Of a DNA stretch of 64,000 nucleotides, positions 23,560 through 47,900 are shown piece after piece (position 1 is the stretch's first letter; the number at the start of each line of letters is the position of its first letter). The notes under the pieces were generated by a model. That model was given only the letters and a program-made list of their open reading frames with translations. It did no database searches and was not told where the DNA came from. The stretch covers positions 3,968,001 through 4,032,000 of the forward strand of contig NZ_CP070351.1 of the NCBI RefSeq assembly GCF_016919385.1. The letters run 5' to 3'. Position numbers and translations under genes: made by a program. The stretch comes from Gordonia sp. PDNC005 (GTDB lineage: Bacteria > Actinomycetota > Actinomycetes > Mycobacteriales > Mycobacteriaceae).

Positions 23560-23562
23560 TTC

Positions 23563-23632
23563 TATCCGCGCTCCCTTCGGCCGCAGCTGCTCCCTCCACG
23601 GCGGGAGCGGATGTCGTGGGAGGGAGCGGATG
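23563..23632. repeat. Left terminal repeat array of cassette 1
   Basis: Contains two degenerate minus units (ATCCGCGCTCCCTTC and GCTCCCTCC) and two plus units (GGGAGCGGATG at 23603 and GGAGGGAGCGGATG at 23619-23632) separated by TCGTG. The last unit supplies GGAGGGAG and an ATG at 23630 that fits as ribosome binding site and start codon of the gene. Confidence 0.75.
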
Positions 23633-24613
23633 GCAGGGCTGTGGACAACGCAGGTGCGCTTCCCGCGAGTTCGGTGTCTACTTCGTCGCATGTGGCCGAC
23701 GGATCAACACGGGATTGTTCAACGCGACGCCGCACTGGCGCGCGGAATCTCGACGCGACGCGTCGACAATGCAGTGCGGTCAGGTGCGTTGATCCTCTTG
23801 GCCCGCGGACGCTACCTCCCCCGTGAAGCGCTCGCCGACGTCGACGCCCCGCGCGACGAGCTGTACCGATACCGGAGCATCGCGTCGGCTCTCGGGTCCG
23901 GGCGCCCTGTTCTCAGTCACGACTCCGCTGCCGCGGTCCTCGGGCTGAAACTCCTCTACCCGGATCAGAACAACGTTCACGTGACGAACGGCAGGAAGAG
24001 CGGAGGCTCACGACGCCCGCAACGGAATGTCCATGCCGGGCTGCTCCCGGATGACGACCTCGTCGACGTCGACGGGGTACTCGTGACTGGGCCGGCGCGG
24101 ACCGCCGTCGATGTCGCACTCGCGACCGCCACATTCCCTCAAGGGCTGACCGCCTTCGATGCCGCGCTCGCCGCCGGGGTCGATCGTGAGGATCTCCGCC
24201 GGATGCTCGCAACATCGCGTCGCGGCGTCGGCCTCGCCCGCCGGGCGCTCTCGTTCGCCGACGGCCGGGCCGAGTCGCCCGGGGAGTCCTGGAGTCGTGC
24301 GCAGATGATCGAAGCCGAGCTCCCCGTCCCCGATCTGCAGGTGGAGTACGTCCTCGCGTCCGGAAAGACCGCACGATGCGATTTCGGGCTCGACGACATC
24401 TTCGTCGGAGAGTTCGACGGCCTTGTCAAGTACCGCCGATCGATGCGCGCCGGCGAATCGCCGGAGGACGTCGTCATCCGCGAGAAGATCCGCGAGGACG
24501 AACTCCGAGACCTCGGCCTGGACGTGGGGCGCTGGGTGTGGCGAGATCTCCGCCAGACGACGATGGTCGCCAAGTTGAAGCGCCGCTACGACCGGCTCGG
24601 TATCCGGTACTGA
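23630..24613 (+). CDS. wHTH (AbiEi-like) plus PD-(D/E)xK-like nuclease protein, cassette 1
   Basis: Soluble 327-residue protein of an actinobacterial family with an AbiEi-antitoxin-like winged-helix N-terminus (HGIVQRDAALARGISTRRVD, then VRSGALILLARGRYLPR). Its C-terminal domain resembles DUF559/Vsr-type nucleases. The nuclease signature is seen as GESWSRAQMIE, then ARCDFGL, then GEFDGLVKY and VIREKIREDELRDLG: a Glu, an Asp, an E-x-D-G and Lys/Arg residues in the right order. The chosen ATG at 23630 lies inside the left repeat with a strong GGAGGGAG ahead of it; ATG 23690 is the alternative. The stop is 3 bases before the right repeat array. The function is unknown; DNA binding and cleavage are family-based inferences. 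Confidence 0.7.
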   Translation: MAGLWTTQVRFPRVRCLLRRMWPTDQHGIVQRDAALARGISTRRVDNAVRSGALILLARGRYLPREALADVDAPRDELYRYRSIASALGSGRPVLSHDSAAAVLGLKLLYPDQNNVHVTNGRKSGGSRRPQRNVHAGLLPDDDLVDVDGVLVTGPARTAVDVALATATFPQGLTAFDAALAAGVDREDLRRMLATSRRGVGLARRALSFADGRAESPGESWSRAQMIEAELPVPDLQVEYVLASGKTARCDFGLDDIFVGEFDGLVKYRRSMRAGESPEDVVIREKIREDELRDLGLDVGRWVWRDLRQTTMVAKLKRRYDRLGIRY

Positions 24614-24614
24614 C

Positions 24615-24683
24615 ATATCCGCTCCCTCCCACGACATCCGCTCCCTCCGCAGAGGGAGCGGATGCAGCCGGAGGGAGCGGATG
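24615..24683. repeat. Right terminal repeat array of cassette 1
   Basis: Two minus units ATCCGCTCCCTCC at 24617-24629 and 24636-24648 are followed by plus units at 24652-24664 and 24670-24683. CATCCGCTCCCTC (24635-24647) and GAGGGAGCGGATG (24652-24664) form a perfect 13-bp hairpin with a CGCA loop. The first 29 bases (24617-24645) are the exact reverse complement of 23603-23631. Confidence 0.8.
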
Positions 24684-24745
24684 GGCGGTCGAAGTCACAC
24701 GGGCGGATGTCTAGCGCCGCCGACCAGCGAAATCGAGACACATTA

Positions 24746-40034: not shown

Positions 40035-40511
40035 ATGGACACCTTCAACGGTCTGCCGCTGCATCCGCTCGTTGTGCACTTCGTCGTCGTCGCGGTTCCG
40101 GTCGCGGCATTCGTCGCGATCGCGGCAGCCGTGTGGCCTGCGGCGCGCGGCAAGATGGGCCCGCTCCCGTCGATCATCGCGTTCCTCGGCCTCATTGCCA
40201 CGTGGGTCGCGATGTCGGCGGGTGAGTCGTTGGAGGAGAAACTGTTCCCCGACGGTGTGTCCGGGCCGGTCGCGACGCACACCGAGGCGGGCGACGTGGT
40301 GATCATCGGCGTCGGCTGTCTCTTCGGTGCCGCGCTGCTGATGTACCTCGTGACGATTCCGGCGATCGTCGATCGTCTTCCGTTGTCGGAGCCGGTCGTG
40401 AAGGCGATCGACGTCGCCGCCCGTGTGCTCTCTGTTGCCGCCGCCGTCGCCGCCCTGTACCTCGTGTACAAAGCAGGCGACTCCGGCGCCCGCGCAGTCT
40501 GGGGCGGTTGA
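40035..40511 (+). CDS. DUF2231-type four-helix membrane protein
   Basis: Small integral membrane protein of 158 residues. The N-terminal HPLVVHFVVVAVPVAAFVA carries the two histidines that mark DUF2231. Four hydrophobic segments are seen (about 12-33, 46-62, 83-107, 121-143). The family has no established role; the histidines suggest haem or metal binding (inference). ATG at 40035. The stop at 40511 lies 7 bases before the first palindrome of cassette 2. Confidence 0.82.
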   Translation: MDTFNGLPLHPLVVHFVVVAVPVAAFVAIAAAVWPAARGKMGPLPSIIAFLGLIATWVAMSAGESLEEKLFPDGVSGPVATHTEAGDVVIIGVGCLFGAALLMYLVTIPAIVDRLPLSEPVVKAIDVAARVLSVAAAVAALYLVYKAGDSGARAVWGG

Positions 40512-40518
40512 GTTTCGT

Positions 40519-40557
40519 GCCGTTGATCGTGACCACTATGTGGTCACGATCAACGGC
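40519..40557. repeat. 39-bp palindrome, left end of cassette 2
   Basis: GCCGTTGATCGTGACCAC and its exact complement flank a TAT loop, giving perfect 18-bp arms. The same 39 bases recur at 41578-41616 with one change (C to T at position 18). Confidence 0.9.
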
Positions 40558-40616
40558 GTAAGAGCCTGTGGACACCGCACTGTCGCGTTTGCCGCTTCGG
40601 TGGCATCCTGCGTGGC

Positions 40617-41585
40617 ATGAGGGAGTCGGAAACACCTGCGGTCCGACGTTTGACGGCCTTGATCCGCAGACAGGACGGGGTCGTGAGCCGGAAGCAAGCT
40701 CTTGAGTGTGGCGTTCCGCCTTCCTACGTCAGGAGCAGACGGCGTGGGGGTCAGTGGGTCGCGGTGTTCCCCGGTACGTACGTGACGCACAACGGCTCGC
40801 CGACATGGATTCAGCGGGTGTGGTGCGCGGTACTCGATGCGGCACCCGCAGTGGTGAGCCACGAGTCGGCGCTGCAAATGCTCGATGGGTCGGGAATAGG
40901 TCCCGTGCACATCAGCGTCGATCGCCGACGTAATGTGCCGCGTCGTCCTGGAGTCGTGCTGCACTACCGGACGGGGTTGGCTGAGGTAGCGGTGCTCGAC
41001 GCGCATCCACCGCGGATGCGCACCGATTACGCAGTCCTCGATGTTGCGCAGGATGCGCGGTCCGAAAATGCGGCGGTCGCCCGCATGGCAGACGCCGTCC
41101 AGAGCGGTCTGACCACGGCAGACCGCCTTCTGCACTTCCTCGGGACCCTTTCGAGGGCACGGCGCGGCGCGTTCCTGAGGTCCGCCCTCCTCGATATCAG
41201 AGACGGCACCTGCTCAGTACTGGAACATCGATACCTGGTCAGTGTCGAGAGGGCGCACGGGCTGCCGGTCGCTCGACGGCAGGCTCCGACCGGGGCCGGT
41301 CGTAGGGGATTGCGCGACGCCGTCTATGCGGATTGGGGGCTGATCGTCGAACTGGACGGTCGGCTGTTTCACGACACAGCGGACGCGCGTGATCGCGACC
41401 TCGAGCGTGACCTCGACGCGGCGGTCGAAGAGGACTTGCGAACCATCAGAGTCGGATACGGGCAGGTGTTCGACCGCGCGTGTGAGACCGCGATCAAGAT
41501 CGCAAAGATACTGAGAAGACTGGGATGGACCGGGGAACTCACGCCCTGCCGAGCAGCAGAGTGTCCGATACGACAATGCCGTTGA
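40617..41585 (+). CDS. wHTH (AbiEi-like) plus PD-(D/E)xK-like nuclease protein, cassette 2
   Basis: Soluble 322-residue protein. The N-terminal winged helix reads LIRRQDGVVSRKQALECGVP, then VRSRRRGGQWVAVFPGTYV, as in AbiEi-type antitoxin domains. The C-terminal nuclease-like domain shows a Glu in CSVLEHRYLVSV, an Asp in RDAVYADWGL, then VELDGRLFHDTADARDRDLERDL, typical of the DUF559/Vsr-like PD-(D/E)xK fold. The layout equals that of the cassette 1 protein, but sequence similarity is low. Its TGA stop lies inside the right palindrome, so the last three residues are repeat-encoded. The gene stands apart from the DUF2231 operon. Function unknown; a role as homing or anti-invader nuclease is speculative. 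Confidence 0.72.
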   Translation: MRESETPAVRRLTALIRRQDGVVSRKQALECGVPPSYVRSRRRGGQWVAVFPGTYVTHNGSPTWIQRVWCAVLDAAPAVVSHESALQMLDGSGIGPVHISVDRRRNVPRRPGVVLHYRTGLAEVAVLDAHPPRMRTDYAVLDVAQDARSENAAVARMADAVQSGLTTADRLLHFLGTLSRARRGAFLRSALLDIRDGTCSVLEHRYLVSVERAHGLPVARRQAPTGAGRRGLRDAVYADWGLIVELDGRLFHDTADARDRDLERDLDAAVEEDLRTIRVGYGQVFDRACETAIKIAKILRRLGWTGELTPCRAAECPIRQCR

Positions 41586-41616
41586 TCGTGACCATTATGT
41601 GGTCACGATCAACGGC
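41578..41616. repeat. 39-bp palindrome, right end of cassette 2
   Basis: GCCGTTGATCGTGACCAT, TAT loop, then GTGGTCACGATCAACGGC; 38 of 39 bases match the left copy. It overlaps the last 8 bases of the nuclease-like gene and ends 9 bases before the embB stop codon on the other strand. Confidence 0.9.
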
Positions 41617-41625
41617 ATAGACGTC

Positions 41626-44600
41626 TCAGTAGCCCTTCGACCGCATGGGAGCGGGGTTGCTCAGACCGCTCACCTTCTGCGTGCCCGTGACGATCTCGGC
41701 GGGTTCCGCGTCGACGAGCGGGGTGAAGCGCTCGAGGCCGCCCCAGTCGCGAGCCCAGTTGTTGCGTTGGTAGGTCGGGACCAGGGTGTACGAGAGCAGA
41801 CCCTCGGTGATGCCGAGTGGACCGCCGTTCACGCCGTCCTGCCACGTCTGGGTGTTCTTCCGCGTCGCCTCCGCGTCGGGCATGATTCGCCACTTGGGAA
41901 GCTCGAGGAGCCCGTTGCGGACGGCCATCGGCCGCTGGCAGGGGAACACCAGACCGGGCATCCAGTCGATGAACACAGGATCGGTGCGTCCGACGACGTC
42001 GTTCAAGGTCTGCAGCGTCGGTACGCGCGGCGGCGTGAGGGCCACCCACTCGTTGACGGCGGCGCCGTCGTCGAGCACGTGGATCCGGACGAGGGACGCG
42101 CGAGGCGGAGCGTCGGCCAACGCGAACCGCAGAGTGCGCCAGTTCAACGACTTCGCGAACGCATCCACCGGCACCTGAGGTGCGCCGACAGGCGTCACGC
42201 GGCCGTCGGCCTCGCGTCGCGCGTACTCGGCGACGACGCGTCGACCCTCGGTGAGCACGCCGTGATCGTCGAATGCGGCGATCGAGCCTGCCGCTGCGAC
42301 ACTCAGCAACGGCCGGTCCTGCGGAGTCTCGCCCGCGGCGGAACCGATCTCGTACCACCCGGTCGTGAGCTCACTGACCTGCTTGGAGCCGTAACTGCCC
42401 AACATCGGGGTGGTGAGGCCGTACGGGAGCTTCACCTTCGTCGTCGGCTTCTCGGCGACTTCCTGCGAAGCCGTCTCCGACTCATCGGAGGAGGTCTCGG
42501 ACTCGTCGACGGAGTCTCCGCCCGCGGTCGGGGGCGCAGTCGCGTCCTCTTCCTCGGTGTCGTCCTTCTTCTGATCGAGAGGATCGATGATGGCCGTCGA
42601 CGGAACACCGTCGGCGGTGAACCCCGAGTTCGCAGCGCCGAGAGCCGTAGCGGCCGACGGGGCGGGCCGGCCGTTGACAGCGGCGGGCTTCAACACGGCC
42701 GCGTTCGGGTCGGACTCCACGAGGATGTCGTTCGCGAGAGCGCACTCGTCTCCGGTCAACGCACGAGCATTCGACTTCGCCCACGACCAACTGTCGCGCT
42801 GCACCCAGGCGCCCTTCACGAACGACCCGAGCATGAACACGACGACGAGTGCGGCGATCACGGGAATGGGCGAGAACGTGAACCGCATCAGGCCCGACCG
42901 TTTCGTGCCGGTCCGGACATCGTCGTCGGCGTAGTCGTCGCGGAAGTGGAACCACAGACCGATACCTGCGACGACGAAGGTGGCGGCCAACGCGAGCCAG
43001 CTCAGCTTCACGCCGGCGATCGCGATCGGCTGATCCCACCACGGGATGCCGTACGAGCCGACGTACCACCACATGTTGCTGCCCGCGGTGGCGACCGCGG
43101 TCACCAGCAGGACCGCAGCGGCGAAGAACGTGCGGTTACGACGTGATCGGAGCAGCCCGGGCGCCATCATCGCGGTGGTACCGGCGACCAACAGGGCGCC
43201 GATCGTGGCGTAGATGCCGAAATGGTGCGTCCACTTGGTCGGCGTGAACGACATGAAGAACATCGTGCCGATCATGATGCCGATCAGACGCCAGAACGGA
43301 GCTCTCGCGACCCCGGCGGGGTGACGGCTCGACACCAGTCGGAAGATCGCCACCACCAGCGCGAGGATCATCAGAAGGATGCCGAAGCGGCGGGGGAACG
43401 TCCCGTCGCCGGTGTTCAACACCAGCCAGTAGTAGCGCTGCGGCTCCTGCCACCACTGCTCGGTCGGTCCGACGTCGGTCGCGACCTTGTTGCCCTCCAG
43501 CAGCGGGCCGAGAGCCTGCGAGTAGAAGATCATGAACAGCACGGCCGAACCGGCGGCGAGTATCGGAGCGATCAGAGGCAGCAGTCCGTCGCGCTTGCGT
43601 CGCGCCACCACACCCTTGACGACCGGCCGCAGGCCGGCGATCAGTGCGGCGGCGGCCATCAGGCCTCCCGGTGCGAGTGCAAGCGTCACCGCTGCCGCTA
43701 TCGTCGCGAACGCGTACGGAAGCAGTCGGCGAGTGGCGATCGCCCGCTCGACGCAGGCCCAGGTCAGCAGTGCGCCGACGGCTTCGGCGGGCTCGGGGCG
43801 GATGCCGTTGTTGTACGGCATCCAGATCGCGAGGAACACCATCGCCCCGGCCCACACGGCCGCGGAGGAGTTGCGGACTGCGCGACCCAGCCGCGGGATG
43901 CCCTCGCGGCTGATGATCCACCAGCCGAGGAGCCCCAAGAGCAGCGACGGAAGTCTCAGCCACGGTGTCGCGACACTCACGTGCGTCATCCACGACAGGA
44001 CCTGGAAGTGCCAGCCGAACGGATCCTGCGGGACACCGAAGTATCGGAAGTAGTTGTCGGCGTATCCGGCCTCGCTGGTGATGCGCGCGACGGTGATGTT
44101 GTAGCCGTCATCGGAGGTGTTCGAACCGATCAACCACCACAGCACCAATACGGCGAACACGGCGACATCCTGCCCGCGGATGGTGAACCATCCAGCGGGC
44201 AGGAACCGCTTGTGGCCGCGGCCGTCACGAGAATCGAGGACGCCGAGGGCGATCAACGACAGCAGGGTCATCAGGATGCCGAAGACGATGCACGCAAGCT
44301 TCAGCGGTGTCGGCGAGTTGATGAAACGGGTGTCGACGGTCGCGTGGAGGTTCAAACCCTCGCGCGACGCCGTCGACGGCAGGTCGGAGAAGACACCGGT
44401 GATCTGCGGTCGCATGTCGGGATCGTCGGTGGTGTACGACGTCGTGTCGCCCGCGGGGACGCCGGAGATGCCCGCGGTGACGCCGTCACCGCTGCCGGTG
44501 AGGGTGAACGCGCAGTCGGCGCTCGTCTCGGCCAGTCTCCGGTCGACGCTGACCAGCACCACGTCGCGGACCACCATGTCGACGGTGTCCGCGGTGGCGC

Positions 44601-44922
44601 GCACGAACAGCCCGCGGGCGGTCGCCTTGCGGCCCTTCGTCGGGAGTGTCGACAGGAGGACGCCGCCCTCGCGCGGCAACGACTTCGTCAGTGAGCACGG
44701 AACCGTCGCCGTCATGTCGATCGGCACGAACGACACCATCGGCGCCGTCACGTTCGTGATCGCATCGTTCTGCGGCCACTGCAGCTCGGCGGTCTTCTGG
44801 TTGATCGGGAGGATCGGTGTCAGCACCGCCATGAGGAAGCCGAGGAGTCCGGCTACGACGGCTGTGATCTTCGCCAGGCGGTACCGGGAAGCCTCGGGGC
44901 GCCGGGTATCAGAGTCGGTCAT
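41626..44922 (-). CDS. embB: Arabinosyltransferase EmbB
   Basis: Membrane GT-C arabinofuranosyltransferase of 1098 residues that branches and extends arabinan using decaprenylphosphoryl-arabinose; a target of ethambutol. The N-terminal helix (about 20-40) leads to the first carbohydrate-binding-like domain. The acidic GT-C motif is NTSDDGYNIT (Asp271, Asp272), the conserved TPTKWTHHFG lies mid-protein, and a large periplasmic C-terminal domain ends with GLSNPAPMRSKGY. The residue equivalent to M. tuberculosis EmbB Met306 is Val278 (TVARIT in place of GMARVA). The ATG overlaps the embA stop as ATGA, so the two are translationally coupled. Assignment as EmbB rests on gene order. Confidence 0.93.
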   Translation of the reverse strand: MTDSDTRRPEASRYRLAKITAVVAGLLGFLMAVLTPILPINQKTAELQWPQNDAITNVTAPMVSFVPIDMTATVPCSLTKSLPREGGVLLSTLPTKGRKATARGLFVRATADTVDMVVRDVVLVSVDRRLAETSADCAFTLTGSGDGVTAGISGVPAGDTTSYTTDDPDMRPQITGVFSDLPSTASREGLNLHATVDTRFINSPTPLKLACIVFGILMTLLSLIALGVLDSRDGRGHKRFLPAGWFTIRGQDVAVFAVLVLWWLIGSNTSDDGYNITVARITSEAGYADNYFRYFGVPQDPFGWHFQVLSWMTHVSVATPWLRLPSLLLGLLGWWIISREGIPRLGRAVRNSSAAVWAGAMVFLAIWMPYNNGIRPEPAEAVGALLTWACVERAIATRRLLPYAFATIAAAVTLALAPGGLMAAAALIAGLRPVVKGVVARRKRDGLLPLIAPILAAGSAVLFMIFYSQALGPLLEGNKVATDVGPTEQWWQEPQRYYWLVLNTGDGTFPRRFGILLMILALVVAIFRLVSSRHPAGVARAPFWRLIGIMIGTMFFMSFTPTKWTHHFGIYATIGALLVAGTTAMMAPGLLRSRRNRTFFAAAVLLVTAVATAGSNMWWYVGSYGIPWWDQPIAIAGVKLSWLALAATFVVAGIGLWFHFRDDYADDDVRTGTKRSGLMRFTFSPIPVIAALVVVFMLGSFVKGAWVQRDSWSWAKSNARALTGDECALANDILVESDPNAAVLKPAAVNGRPAPSAATALGAANSGFTADGVPSTAIIDPLDQKKDDTEEEDATAPPTAGGDSVDESETSSDESETASQEVAEKPTTKVKLPYGLTTPMLGSYGSKQVSELTTGWYEIGSAAGETPQDRPLLSVAAAGSIAAFDDHGVLTEGRRVVAEYARREADGRVTPVGAPQVPVDAFAKSLNWRTLRFALADAPPRASLVRIHVLDDGAAVNEWVALTPPRVPTLQTLNDVVGRTDPVFIDWMPGLVFPCQRPMAVRNGLLELPKWRIMPDAEATRKNTQTWQDGVNGGPLGITEGLLSYTLVPTYQRNNWARDWGGLERFTPLVDAEPAEIVTGTQKVSGLSNPAPMRSKGY

Positions 44923-47900
44923 TGTTGCGGCTGCTCCAGACGGATGGTTCCAGTGCGACTCCAGCCCCACGCGGTGGCCGGTGCGGTGTGGACGCGGGCG
45001 ATCGTGGCGTCAGGGGTGAGCGGGGTGAGCTTCTCGAGCGAACCCCAGTCCTGATGCCAGTCGTCCTTCAAATAGGTCGGGACGGTCGCCTGCTTGGTGG
45101 TCGATTCGACGATCGACAGCGGCCCGCCCGCCTTGGCCGTCATCCACGTCCGCGACTGCGAGTTCGCCGTCACGAAGTCGGGCCTGATCCGCCACTGAGG
45201 CACCTGGCTGACTCCGTGCGTGAACGTCATCGGCTGCTGACAGGGGAACTGCGCGGCCGCCGAGAAGTCGATCAATGTCGGAGCATCCGAGCCGACCATC
45301 TCCTGCAACGTCACGAGCTTCGGGGCGCGCGGCGGCGTGATGCCGATGAACTGCCAGACGCCGAGATTGGTGTCGGCGAGATGAAGGCGCATCGCCGTCG
45401 CGGCAGGCGGGACGGCCGTCATCGGAACGCGGAGGTTGCGCCACGGCCTGTTCGGCATCACGGGACCCGGATCGATCGGCGTCACGTCGGCGCCGACCTG
45501 AATGAATTGGCCGTCTGGTCCGGTCTTGCCGAACTGGGCCACCACCACCTGGCCGGGACCGCGGTTGCCGTCGACGTCGAACGTCGACACCGCGCCTGCC
45601 GTCGAGAAGACGATGATCGGCGACGCGTCGCGCTTGGGGAGCTGGTACCAGCCGGTGGTCAGGTACGCGTTGGCCTGGTAGCCGAAACTGCCGAGGACCG
45701 GCGTCGACTCCGGCTTGAGGCCGAACGGCAGGGCAGCGTTCGAGCCGTTGACCGTGGTGGGTCCGACGCCGCCGTCGGAACCGGCTCCGAGCCCTCCGAC
45801 GATCGCGAACGGCTTCGACGTTGAGCCGCCGACGTGCATCTGCCCTGCGCGCGCGCTCGACGGGTCGGGCGTCAGGTCGCCGGGGATGCCGGTCGGAGTG
45901 AAGCCGACGGGCTTGTCACCGGTCAGCGCCTTCGTCGCCGAGACACCGCCGACGGGGACGAGCATTCCGGCGTTCGCGTCAGGTTCGGCGAGGACCTTGT
46001 CGGCCATCGCGCACGTACCGCCGGTCAGAGAAGCGACGTTGTTGCTGAACACAGTCATCGCCGGACTGCGGGTGACGACGGCTTTGCCGAACGCCGCGAG
46101 GGTCGCGACGACCATCAGCGATGCGATCAGGAGCAGCGGAGTCGATGCGAGCGCGAGTCGCCGCTTGTCGGCGGGGGAGTCGGGCTCTCCGGCGTCGTGG
46201 TGGGCGAGGCCGCGGTTGGCGACGTAGTCCGAACGCAGGTGCAGCCACAGTGCGGCGGCGACGGCGACGACTGCCAGGAACAGCAGCACCGACGACGCCT
46301 GGATGTCACGGAACGCGGGCGGCATGTCGAACCACACGATGCCGTAGCGGTAGGCGTACGGCCAGGCGTTCTTGCCCGCCGCGGCGGCGGCCAACGCGAA
46401 CAGCAGGCCCACGGTGAGCACCGCCAGATTGCGCGACGAACGGGCGCCCGCCTGGGCGATCGCCAGACAGGCGATCGCCGACAGGGCCGCGGCGAGTCCA
46501 GCGAAGATTCCGAACTGGATCGTCCACTTGACCGGCGTGAGGAACAGCAGCAGGAGGGTGACGCCGAACGCGCCGACGAGGCGCCAGGCCGGGCTGTACT
46601 TCACACCGTCGATGGTGCGCCGGCGCAGCAGCACGATCGCGGTGATGATCGCTGCGACGAACATCAGCAGGACGGCGATGCGGCGAGCCAGAGCGCCGTC
46701 CGGTGTGGTGACGGTGAGGAAGAAGTACCGGAGGAACTCCTGGTGCCACGGCACGATCGGGCCGGTCTGGTACTTGACCTTCACCGCTTCGAGGATGGTC
46801 ATGAGCGTCTGGTCACGGAACACGACGACGGCCACCACGGTCCCGGCGGCGGCGATCGGCGCGAGCAGGGGTGCAAGCCCCACCTCACGGCGTCGGTCCA
46901 CGAGCAGGTGCAGCAGCGGCCGGGCCGCGACCAGCAGGATCGCGATGCCGATCACGCCCTGAGGCGCGAGTGCAAGGGTGAACGCCGCGGTGGTCGCGGC
47001 GAGTGCGGCGGGTAGCAGGCGCCGTCGAGTGATCGCCGCCTCCGTCGCCCACCAGGTGAGCAGGGAGCCGAGGACGATCACGCCTTCGGTGCGCAGCCCG
47101 GAACACAGCGGCAGCCAGAACGCGAGGAGGACGGCCGCGGCGGTGCCGGTGGCCCATGCGTTGGACGAGCGCGCCACACCGAGGTGAGGCAGCACCACGC
47201 GGGACAGGACGAACCAGGTCAGCAGGCCCGCGACCAGCTGCGGGAGATGCATCCACACGATGCCCGTCGACACCTGCGACCACAGGGACAGGAAGCTGTA
47301 GTACCAGTCGAACGGTGCTTCGGCGGCGCCGTAGAAGCGGTAGTAGTTCGACATGTAACCCGACGCGTCGGCCGCGCGGCCCATCGTCAGGATGTACCCG
47401 TCGTCCGGGGCGGCCGCGCCGAGGAACGTCCACAGCACCATGACGCCGGTCACGACGGCGTCCGAGACACGAGGACGCAGCAGCGACAGCCAGGAGCCGG
47501 TGCGGCGGACGAGACCGCCGATGTAGCCGTGGACCCGGTCCAAGCACCACAGTGCGAACAGAGCGACAACGGTGGCGAGGACGGCGATGACCATCGCGAT
47601 CACTTTGAGTGCCGAGGGGCTGCTCTCATACCGATTGTCGATGTTGATGCGCGCGTGCAGGCCCTTCGCGGCAAGCTGCTCGACCTGTGCGGTGGTCAGA
47701 GTCGTGTAGAAGCCTTCGACCTGGGGCCGCTTGCTCGCGTCGAGGATCTTCGCCGGGCCGAGGCCGACGAACTGTGCTCCAGTCTCGGCGGGGGAGGCGA
47801 AAATCCGCAGTGCCGTGCACTTGCCCGCGGCGATGTCGGCGCGAGAGGCGGTGGCAGCGATGTTCGCGCGCATGAGCACGGTGACAGCGGTGTCGGACGT

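Follow-up and report, generated by a model that had tools for sequence, protein, structure and literature searches.

The locus lies in a 64,000-nucleotide stretch of Gordonia DNA (hereafter the window) from a genome that consists of one contig of 4.26 Mb. Two converging genes define it, a DUF2231 membrane protein gene on the left (40035..40511, + strand) and an arabinosyltransferase (emb) gene on the right (41626..44970, - strand), and both served as flanks outside the cassette for the junction comparisons. Between them is a putative nuclease gene encoding 322 aa (40617..41585, + strand), which is bracketed by an upstream 39-bp palindrome with 18-bp arms and a 3-nt centre (40519..40557) and a downstream 39-bp palindrome (41578..41616), neither of which has an assigned strand. 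An earlier note on this DNA had described two 39-base palindromes differing at one base and flanking one gene, 7 and 9 bases from the stops of its converging neighbours, and this description is exact. The single difference between the copies is a C/T change close to the centre, the upstream palindrome begins 7 bases past the DUF2231 stop (40509-40511), and the emb stop codon (41626) stands 9 bases beyond the end of the downstream palindrome. The end of the upstream palindrome is separated by 59 bases from the start codon of the nuclease gene, and the stop codon of that gene, TGA, falls within the downstream palindrome.

Hairpins were scored as the arm length minus 2 per mismatch, allowing a loop of up to 8. 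The two cassette palindromes are the only hairpins in the window with a score of at least 17, and a sample of twenty 20-kb stretches of the same genome (400 kb) contained 9 such hairpins; one of the nine, at genome 1663695, is a member of the cassette's palindrome family. The core GTTGATCGTGACCA has exact matches in the window only in the four arms of the cassette palindromes; allowing up to 2 mismatches gives 5 window matches versus a mean of 0.62 in shuffled sequences.

A Pfam search of the encoded protein identified AbiEi_4 (E 3e-8) and, below the cutoff, HTH_21 (E up to 1), and the PADLOC AbiEi models also match it. Neither DUF559 nor an HUH/Y1 tyrosine transposase was recognised by Pfam at E up to 1, and the gene has no match to the transposase families in Pfam, in agreement with the earlier statement that the protein is not a known transposase. 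Fold comparison using a predicted model assigned almost the entire chain: residues 7-195 (40635..41201, + strand) resemble the AbiEi antitoxin fold, with an N-terminal winged helix that is the candidate reader of the palindrome, and residues 199-304 (41211..41528, + strand) resemble the fold of Vsr and of the EDxHD homing endonuclease I-Bth0305I. The proposal of an AbiEi-like winged helix followed by a DUF559/Vsr-like domain is therefore upheld by Pfam in its first part and not, as regards DUF559, in its second, for which the Vsr/DUF559-like resemblance comes from the predicted fold. Residues E203, D234, E245, D247, H252, D261 and D265 are invariant among 60 aligned homologues. The protein is thus predicted to combine two folds, a DNA-binding one like that of AbiEi and a nuclease one like that of Vsr/EDxHD enzymes, and a DNA-cutting protein is the likely gene product. 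Among the best 120 of 1182 listed homologues, those with an organism name are almost all from Gordonia, with two from Nocardioides.

Matched palindromes in the nuclease family

The same genome contains four further core relatives of the window protein (49-57% identity) and one distant match. All four core relatives have a long palindrome near the gene, each different in sequence. When the loci of the own and related genomes were examined together, a matched upstream/downstream repeat was found at 31 of 51 loci, comprising 26 of 41 core loci with broken genes counted and 5 of 10 outer members. Restricting the core subfamily to intact members, defined by an open frame of 280-370 aa, gave a matched pair in 24 of 32, and the remaining 8 have no significant one. 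The control, from which genes close to the end of a stretch or with N in the flanking sequence were excluded, gave a matched pair in 0 of 242 ordinary genes; the pair-score threshold of 32 was chosen after seeing the data, and the background maximum was 25. Where the copies were found, the upstream one mostly ends some 55-120 bases ahead of the start codon and the downstream one mostly abuts or overlaps the stop codon. Of the 31 significant pairs, 23 obtain a higher score as direct repeats and 8 as inverted repeats, in some cases by a small margin, so that the pairs conform strictly neither to an attL/attR arrangement nor to inverted terminal repeats. Relatives also contain nuclease copies that are truncated or broken (L141, L142, L146, L147, L149 and L153), some of them still beside a good palindrome, which suggests frequent gene decay.

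We extracted 47 palindromes with a hairpin score of at least 11 and, leaving out L125, L138, L147 and two of L151, aligned 42 of them without gaps over 45 columns (alignment A2). The only invariant positions are G7 and the symmetric C39; 25 of the 42 palindromes have T in column 8, and GTAG is present in only part of the set, within the stem. The 95% pairing in the alignment is inflated because the palindromes were chosen for their symmetry. Changes on both sides were seen in 14 of 15 pairs, a figure that is subject to the same choice by symmetry. Among the 15 cassettes with both copies in the alignment, the upstream and downstream copies differ by a median of 8% (maximum 27%), and palindromes of different cassettes differ by a median of 46% (minimum 0); the copies are thus similar within a pair and usually unlike between genes. 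For 23 cassettes the palindrome distance correlates with the distance between winged helices (Mantel r 0.37, p 0.001), with that between residues 61-195 (r 0.26, p 0.009) and, more weakly in a nominal comparison of r values, with that between the nuclease parts (r 0.25, p 0.017).

Outside the core subfamily, matched flanking repeats were found at 6 of 18 other loci of the own genome, with the start codon picked to favour the pair. One of these loci, cassette 1, is in the window itself (23560-24690), where an AbiEi-type gene (ORF about 23660-24613) has other matched flanking repeats, of the CCGCTCCCTCC type, with a pair score of 91; judged from its sequence, it follows the same logic in another lineage. 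The other five (L016, L018, L021, L039 and L042) are AbiEi/DUF559 genes whose repeats score 85, 63, 60, 106 and 32. A 63-base near-perfect palindrome at L024:653-715 lies 5 bases past the stop of an AbiEi_4-type frame, where the upstream pair score is only 22.

Lone palindromes and their distribution among species

The covariance model R1, trained on eight of the ten cassette palindromes of the own genome including both window copies, which it matches, identified at E up to 0.01 at least 22 distinct palindromes in that genome; the R1 counts are lower bounds because the initial scoring was confined to 150 candidates per genome in the own-genome scan and to 106 in the wider scan. Ten of the 22 flank the five core cassettes, and among these only the palindromes at 2918852 and 3662712 are independent finds since the other eight trained the model. 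The other 12 stand alone. The palindrome, for which the earlier note had suggested testing whether it is found only next to this protein family, is thus not confined to the nuclease gene. According to a simple gene call, eleven of the lone copies are intergenic or reach the end of a gene. The twelfth (4086762) is located within the final 135 bases of a predicted frame, which itself runs into the following gene; if it is included, converging genes flank seven of the 12. The lone copy at 2045483 shares a 41-base identity with the upstream palindrome of the window cassette. In G069, the closest relative seen, the palindrome is kept at 9 of the 12 lone sites and is missing at 3928220, 597383 and 502086. 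One lone palindrome is common to the own genome, G069 and G020, and its symmetry is preserved in G020 by a paired change, a pattern that, as far as the sequence goes, leaves room for a maintained host role such as termination. Elsewhere in the own genome (L081:3158-4264, genome 3927158-3928264), two near-identical palindromes with opposite loop orientation surround serine-hydrolase and MerR-type genes without a nuclease, and the second of them is absent in G069.

The wider scan for palindromes covered 59 genomes, 37 of which, all from the genus, were screened for both the palindrome and the core nuclease (best E below 1e-50). Palindromes were found in 17 of the 19 genomes with a core nuclease versus 4 of the 18 without one (Fisher p 5e-5; Spearman 0.79 for the counts), where the tallies include the cassettes' own palindromes and the species are not independent. 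G004 and G052 contain a core nuclease, and the R1 palindrome was not found in them; G015, G043, G045 and G048 have palindrome matches without a detected core nuclease, and these are perhaps relics. The matches in G001 and some other genomes are the cassette's own palindrome only. Four palindromes lie inside 0.8 kb at G020:C5:1566014-1566808, a possible array.

Junction comparisons and exchange at the palindromes

The DUF2231-emb junction was compared in relatives; emb is beside DUF2231 in only 4 of 23 relative DUF2231 loci. In G069, which was not included in the nuclease search of genomes, the C-terminal 250 aa of emb are 98% identical and DUF2231 is 90% identical to those of the window. At the junction G069 has another cassette, with different palindromes and a nuclease that shows 57% identity to the window's and 70.5% to the nuclease of G020, which carries another cassette at this junction too. 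In a sliding DNA comparison of G069 with the own genome, identity is 84-90% up to the first palindrome, drops to 53-69% within the palindrome-bracketed block and recovers to 87-97% beyond it, with the breakpoints at the palindromes. For another cassette of the own genome, L069, the counterpart in G069 is 94% identical and forms part of a collinear region of 11.7 kb, which means that the divergence at the window junction is not the general rate. The junction of G016 consists of about 76 bp holding an unrelated hairpin, and the gap between DUF2231 and emb is filled by about 0.6 kb of other sequence in G004 and about 1.0 kb in G003. The G004 gap (L089:1980-2610) has, by eye, short repeat clusters of the GTTCGTCCAC / GAATCCGTTCTGCC type on both sides, which in sequence are reminiscent of window cassette 1. 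A true empty site was not found in the close relatives, that is, in the four emb-adjacent DUF2231 loci and G069. The junction is therefore not identical in all relatives, and the earlier note's reading is partly supported: replacement of the block between the palindromes is seen here (G069), whereas the empty convergent gap that insertion as a unit would call for was not found in these relatives.

The site of a second cassette, L067, occurs in three states: G007 has the two converging genes directly adjacent and no palindrome between them, G020 has a lone palindrome of the same type as that of L067, and the own genome has palindrome, gene and palindrome. L067 and the 75% identical L136 of G020 share DNA from palindrome to palindrome, at different sites. 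The own-genome site was considered as a clean reciprocal empty site for L136 and rejected, as one flank differs. Next to cassette L068, about 2.3 kb of additional DNA is present in G020 (L188:9035-11379) and absent in the own genome. This segment contains a protein-kinase gene (Pkinase, E 2e-40) and a terminal palindrome; its edges are at or near palindromes, and the adjoining cassette region is otherwise 92% identical. For comparison with insertion sequences and MITEs, the junctions were inspected for a target-site duplication; none was observed, and no junction among them is a clean close-strain cassette insertion. The exchange of the block between the palindromes among strains is well supported by these sequence comparisons, and homologous recombination of the usual kind, acting on a short segment, could account for it.

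A proposed mobile element, its alternatives and known systems

We propose, with a probability of about 0.6, that the window gene and its palindromes form a small selfish or mobile cassette, similar in organization to REPtrons, whose nuclease would act on its own palindrome. The AbiEi-type winged helix would read the palindrome of its own cassette and the Vsr/EDxHD-type nuclease would cut or nick the DNA there, with a lone cognate palindrome elsewhere serving as the landing site. Repair of the cut, utilizing the two matched half-palindromes as homology, would then copy the gene in, so that an intact palindrome stands at either end of it; if the two copies recombined, the gene would be lost and a lone palindrome would remain, and the lone palindromes would be the gene-less, REP-like form. 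At the sequence level, what can be seen directly are the matched pairs, the lone copies, the junction swaps at the palindromes and the three-state locus; from these we infer binding, cutting, the direction of change and the repair route. The three-state locus and the cassette swap are compatible with homing, in the sense of cutting and copying into a cognate empty site. Against the proposal stand the mixed orientation of the pairs, the failure to see a target-site duplication, the 8 intact core members with no significant pair, and the genomes in which palindrome and core nuclease do not coincide. Our observations suggest that the palindrome-nuclease-palindrome unit is an undescribed kind of small mobile element.

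The palindromes could also belong to an AbiEi-type host or defence regulator that represses itself through them, in which case the lone copies would be other regulated sites and the exchange between strains passive and homologous. The AbiEi fold and the PADLOC AbiEi matches, the promoter-like distance of the upstream palindrome and the correlation of palindrome and winged-helix distances would all be expected of such a regulator, but it does not account for a second copy at the 3' end, over or beside the stop codon, for lone copies located mostly at the end of a gene or behind it (7 of the 12 in convergent gaps) rather than at promoters, for the invariant residues of the nuclease part or for breakpoints located at the palindromes, and we regard it as unlikely. 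Less probable still is that these are ordinary structural palindromes, either bidirectional terminators or hairpins of the REP type, that have no enzyme dedicated to them and beside which the nuclease genes just tend to sit. Many lone copies between converging genes, the other, different long hairpins of the genome and the lone copy conserved with a paired change agree with this reading, whereas the pair recurs at similar start and stop positions in the family and in 0 of 242 other genes, the palindromes have a common length and register, and their presence tracks that of the nuclease across species. The earlier note had held that a generic terminator, together with a junction identical in all relatives, would weaken the mobile interpretation; we rejected a terminator as the complete explanation, since the matched pair is tied to the nuclease gene family and the converging genes of G007 abut without a palindrome.

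An unrelated transposase or recombinase acting in trans, with the nuclease as cargo, would explain the protein-kinase segment of G020 with its edges at or near palindromes, and also the own-genome palindrome pair around serine-hydrolase and MerR genes. However, the recurrent partner of matched palindromes at the examined loci is the nuclease gene, which has no transposase family match, and we consider such mobilization a rather remote prospect. Returning to the self-acting cassette, we also put forward, tentatively and at somewhat under even odds, that it represents an element independent of REPtrons, in which an AbiEi-Vsr/EDxHD fusion would spread and maintain a private palindrome, home into lone copies and restore the palindrome at both ends of the gene. 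Several AbiEi/DUF559 lineages of this genome may work by the same logic, with palindrome and winged helix co-evolving in many private pairs. If this is true, the HUH transposases behind known REPs are not the only enzymes able to drive palindromic repeats in bacteria: an unrelated one can do so as well. Many actinobacterial genes now annotated as 'AbiEi antitoxin' or 'DUF559' would then be selfish nucleases, each acting on DNA sites private to it. With different palindromes and proteins that are often 45-60% identical, the numerous pairs of nuclease and palindrome found in nature would also make the co-evolution of DNA recognition and the spread of palindromes directly testable. An association of a palindrome with an AbiEi/DUF559 nuclease was not found in the titles or abstract openings of the papers listed, a scope to which the subscription literature is mostly external.

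Several known systems share part of this arrangement. The protein has the predicted AbiEi antitoxin fold of AbiE type IV toxin-antitoxin systems, but the cassette is not an AbiE system: no AbiEii nucleotidyltransferase toxin gene adjoins it, and the protein also carries a fused nuclease-like domain. Compared with Vsr very-short-patch repair endonucleases and DUF559 proteins, the cassette nuclease differs in its fusion with a DNA-binding domain and in having palindromes on both sides of its gene, and neither of the neighbouring genes encodes a cytosine methyltransferase. EDxHD homing endonucleases such as I-Bth0305I share the EDxHD/Vsr-like predicted fold, but the DNA-binding part of the cassette protein is AbiEi-like and no intron or intein was seen. 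In ordinary homing the insertion destroys the target, whereas the target-like palindrome of the cassette is intact on both sides and not interrupted. REPs often reach hundreds of copies per genome, in contrast to a count here of at least 22 in the own genome, with a palindrome sequence largely private to each cassette. REPtrons (REP with RAYT / TnpA-REP) are outlined as a dedicated DNA-processing gene between short palindromes, with lone intergenic copies and co-evolution of enzyme and palindrome, and their HUH enzyme as handling single-stranded REP (PMC3733652, PMC8266576). The cassette is not a REPtron, as an HUH enzyme was not recognised, its enzyme having the predicted AbiEi and Vsr/EDxHD-like fold instead, and its palindromes have no fixed GTAG or CGTC end tag; what it has in common with REPtrons is a gene placed between palindromes that also stand alone between genes.
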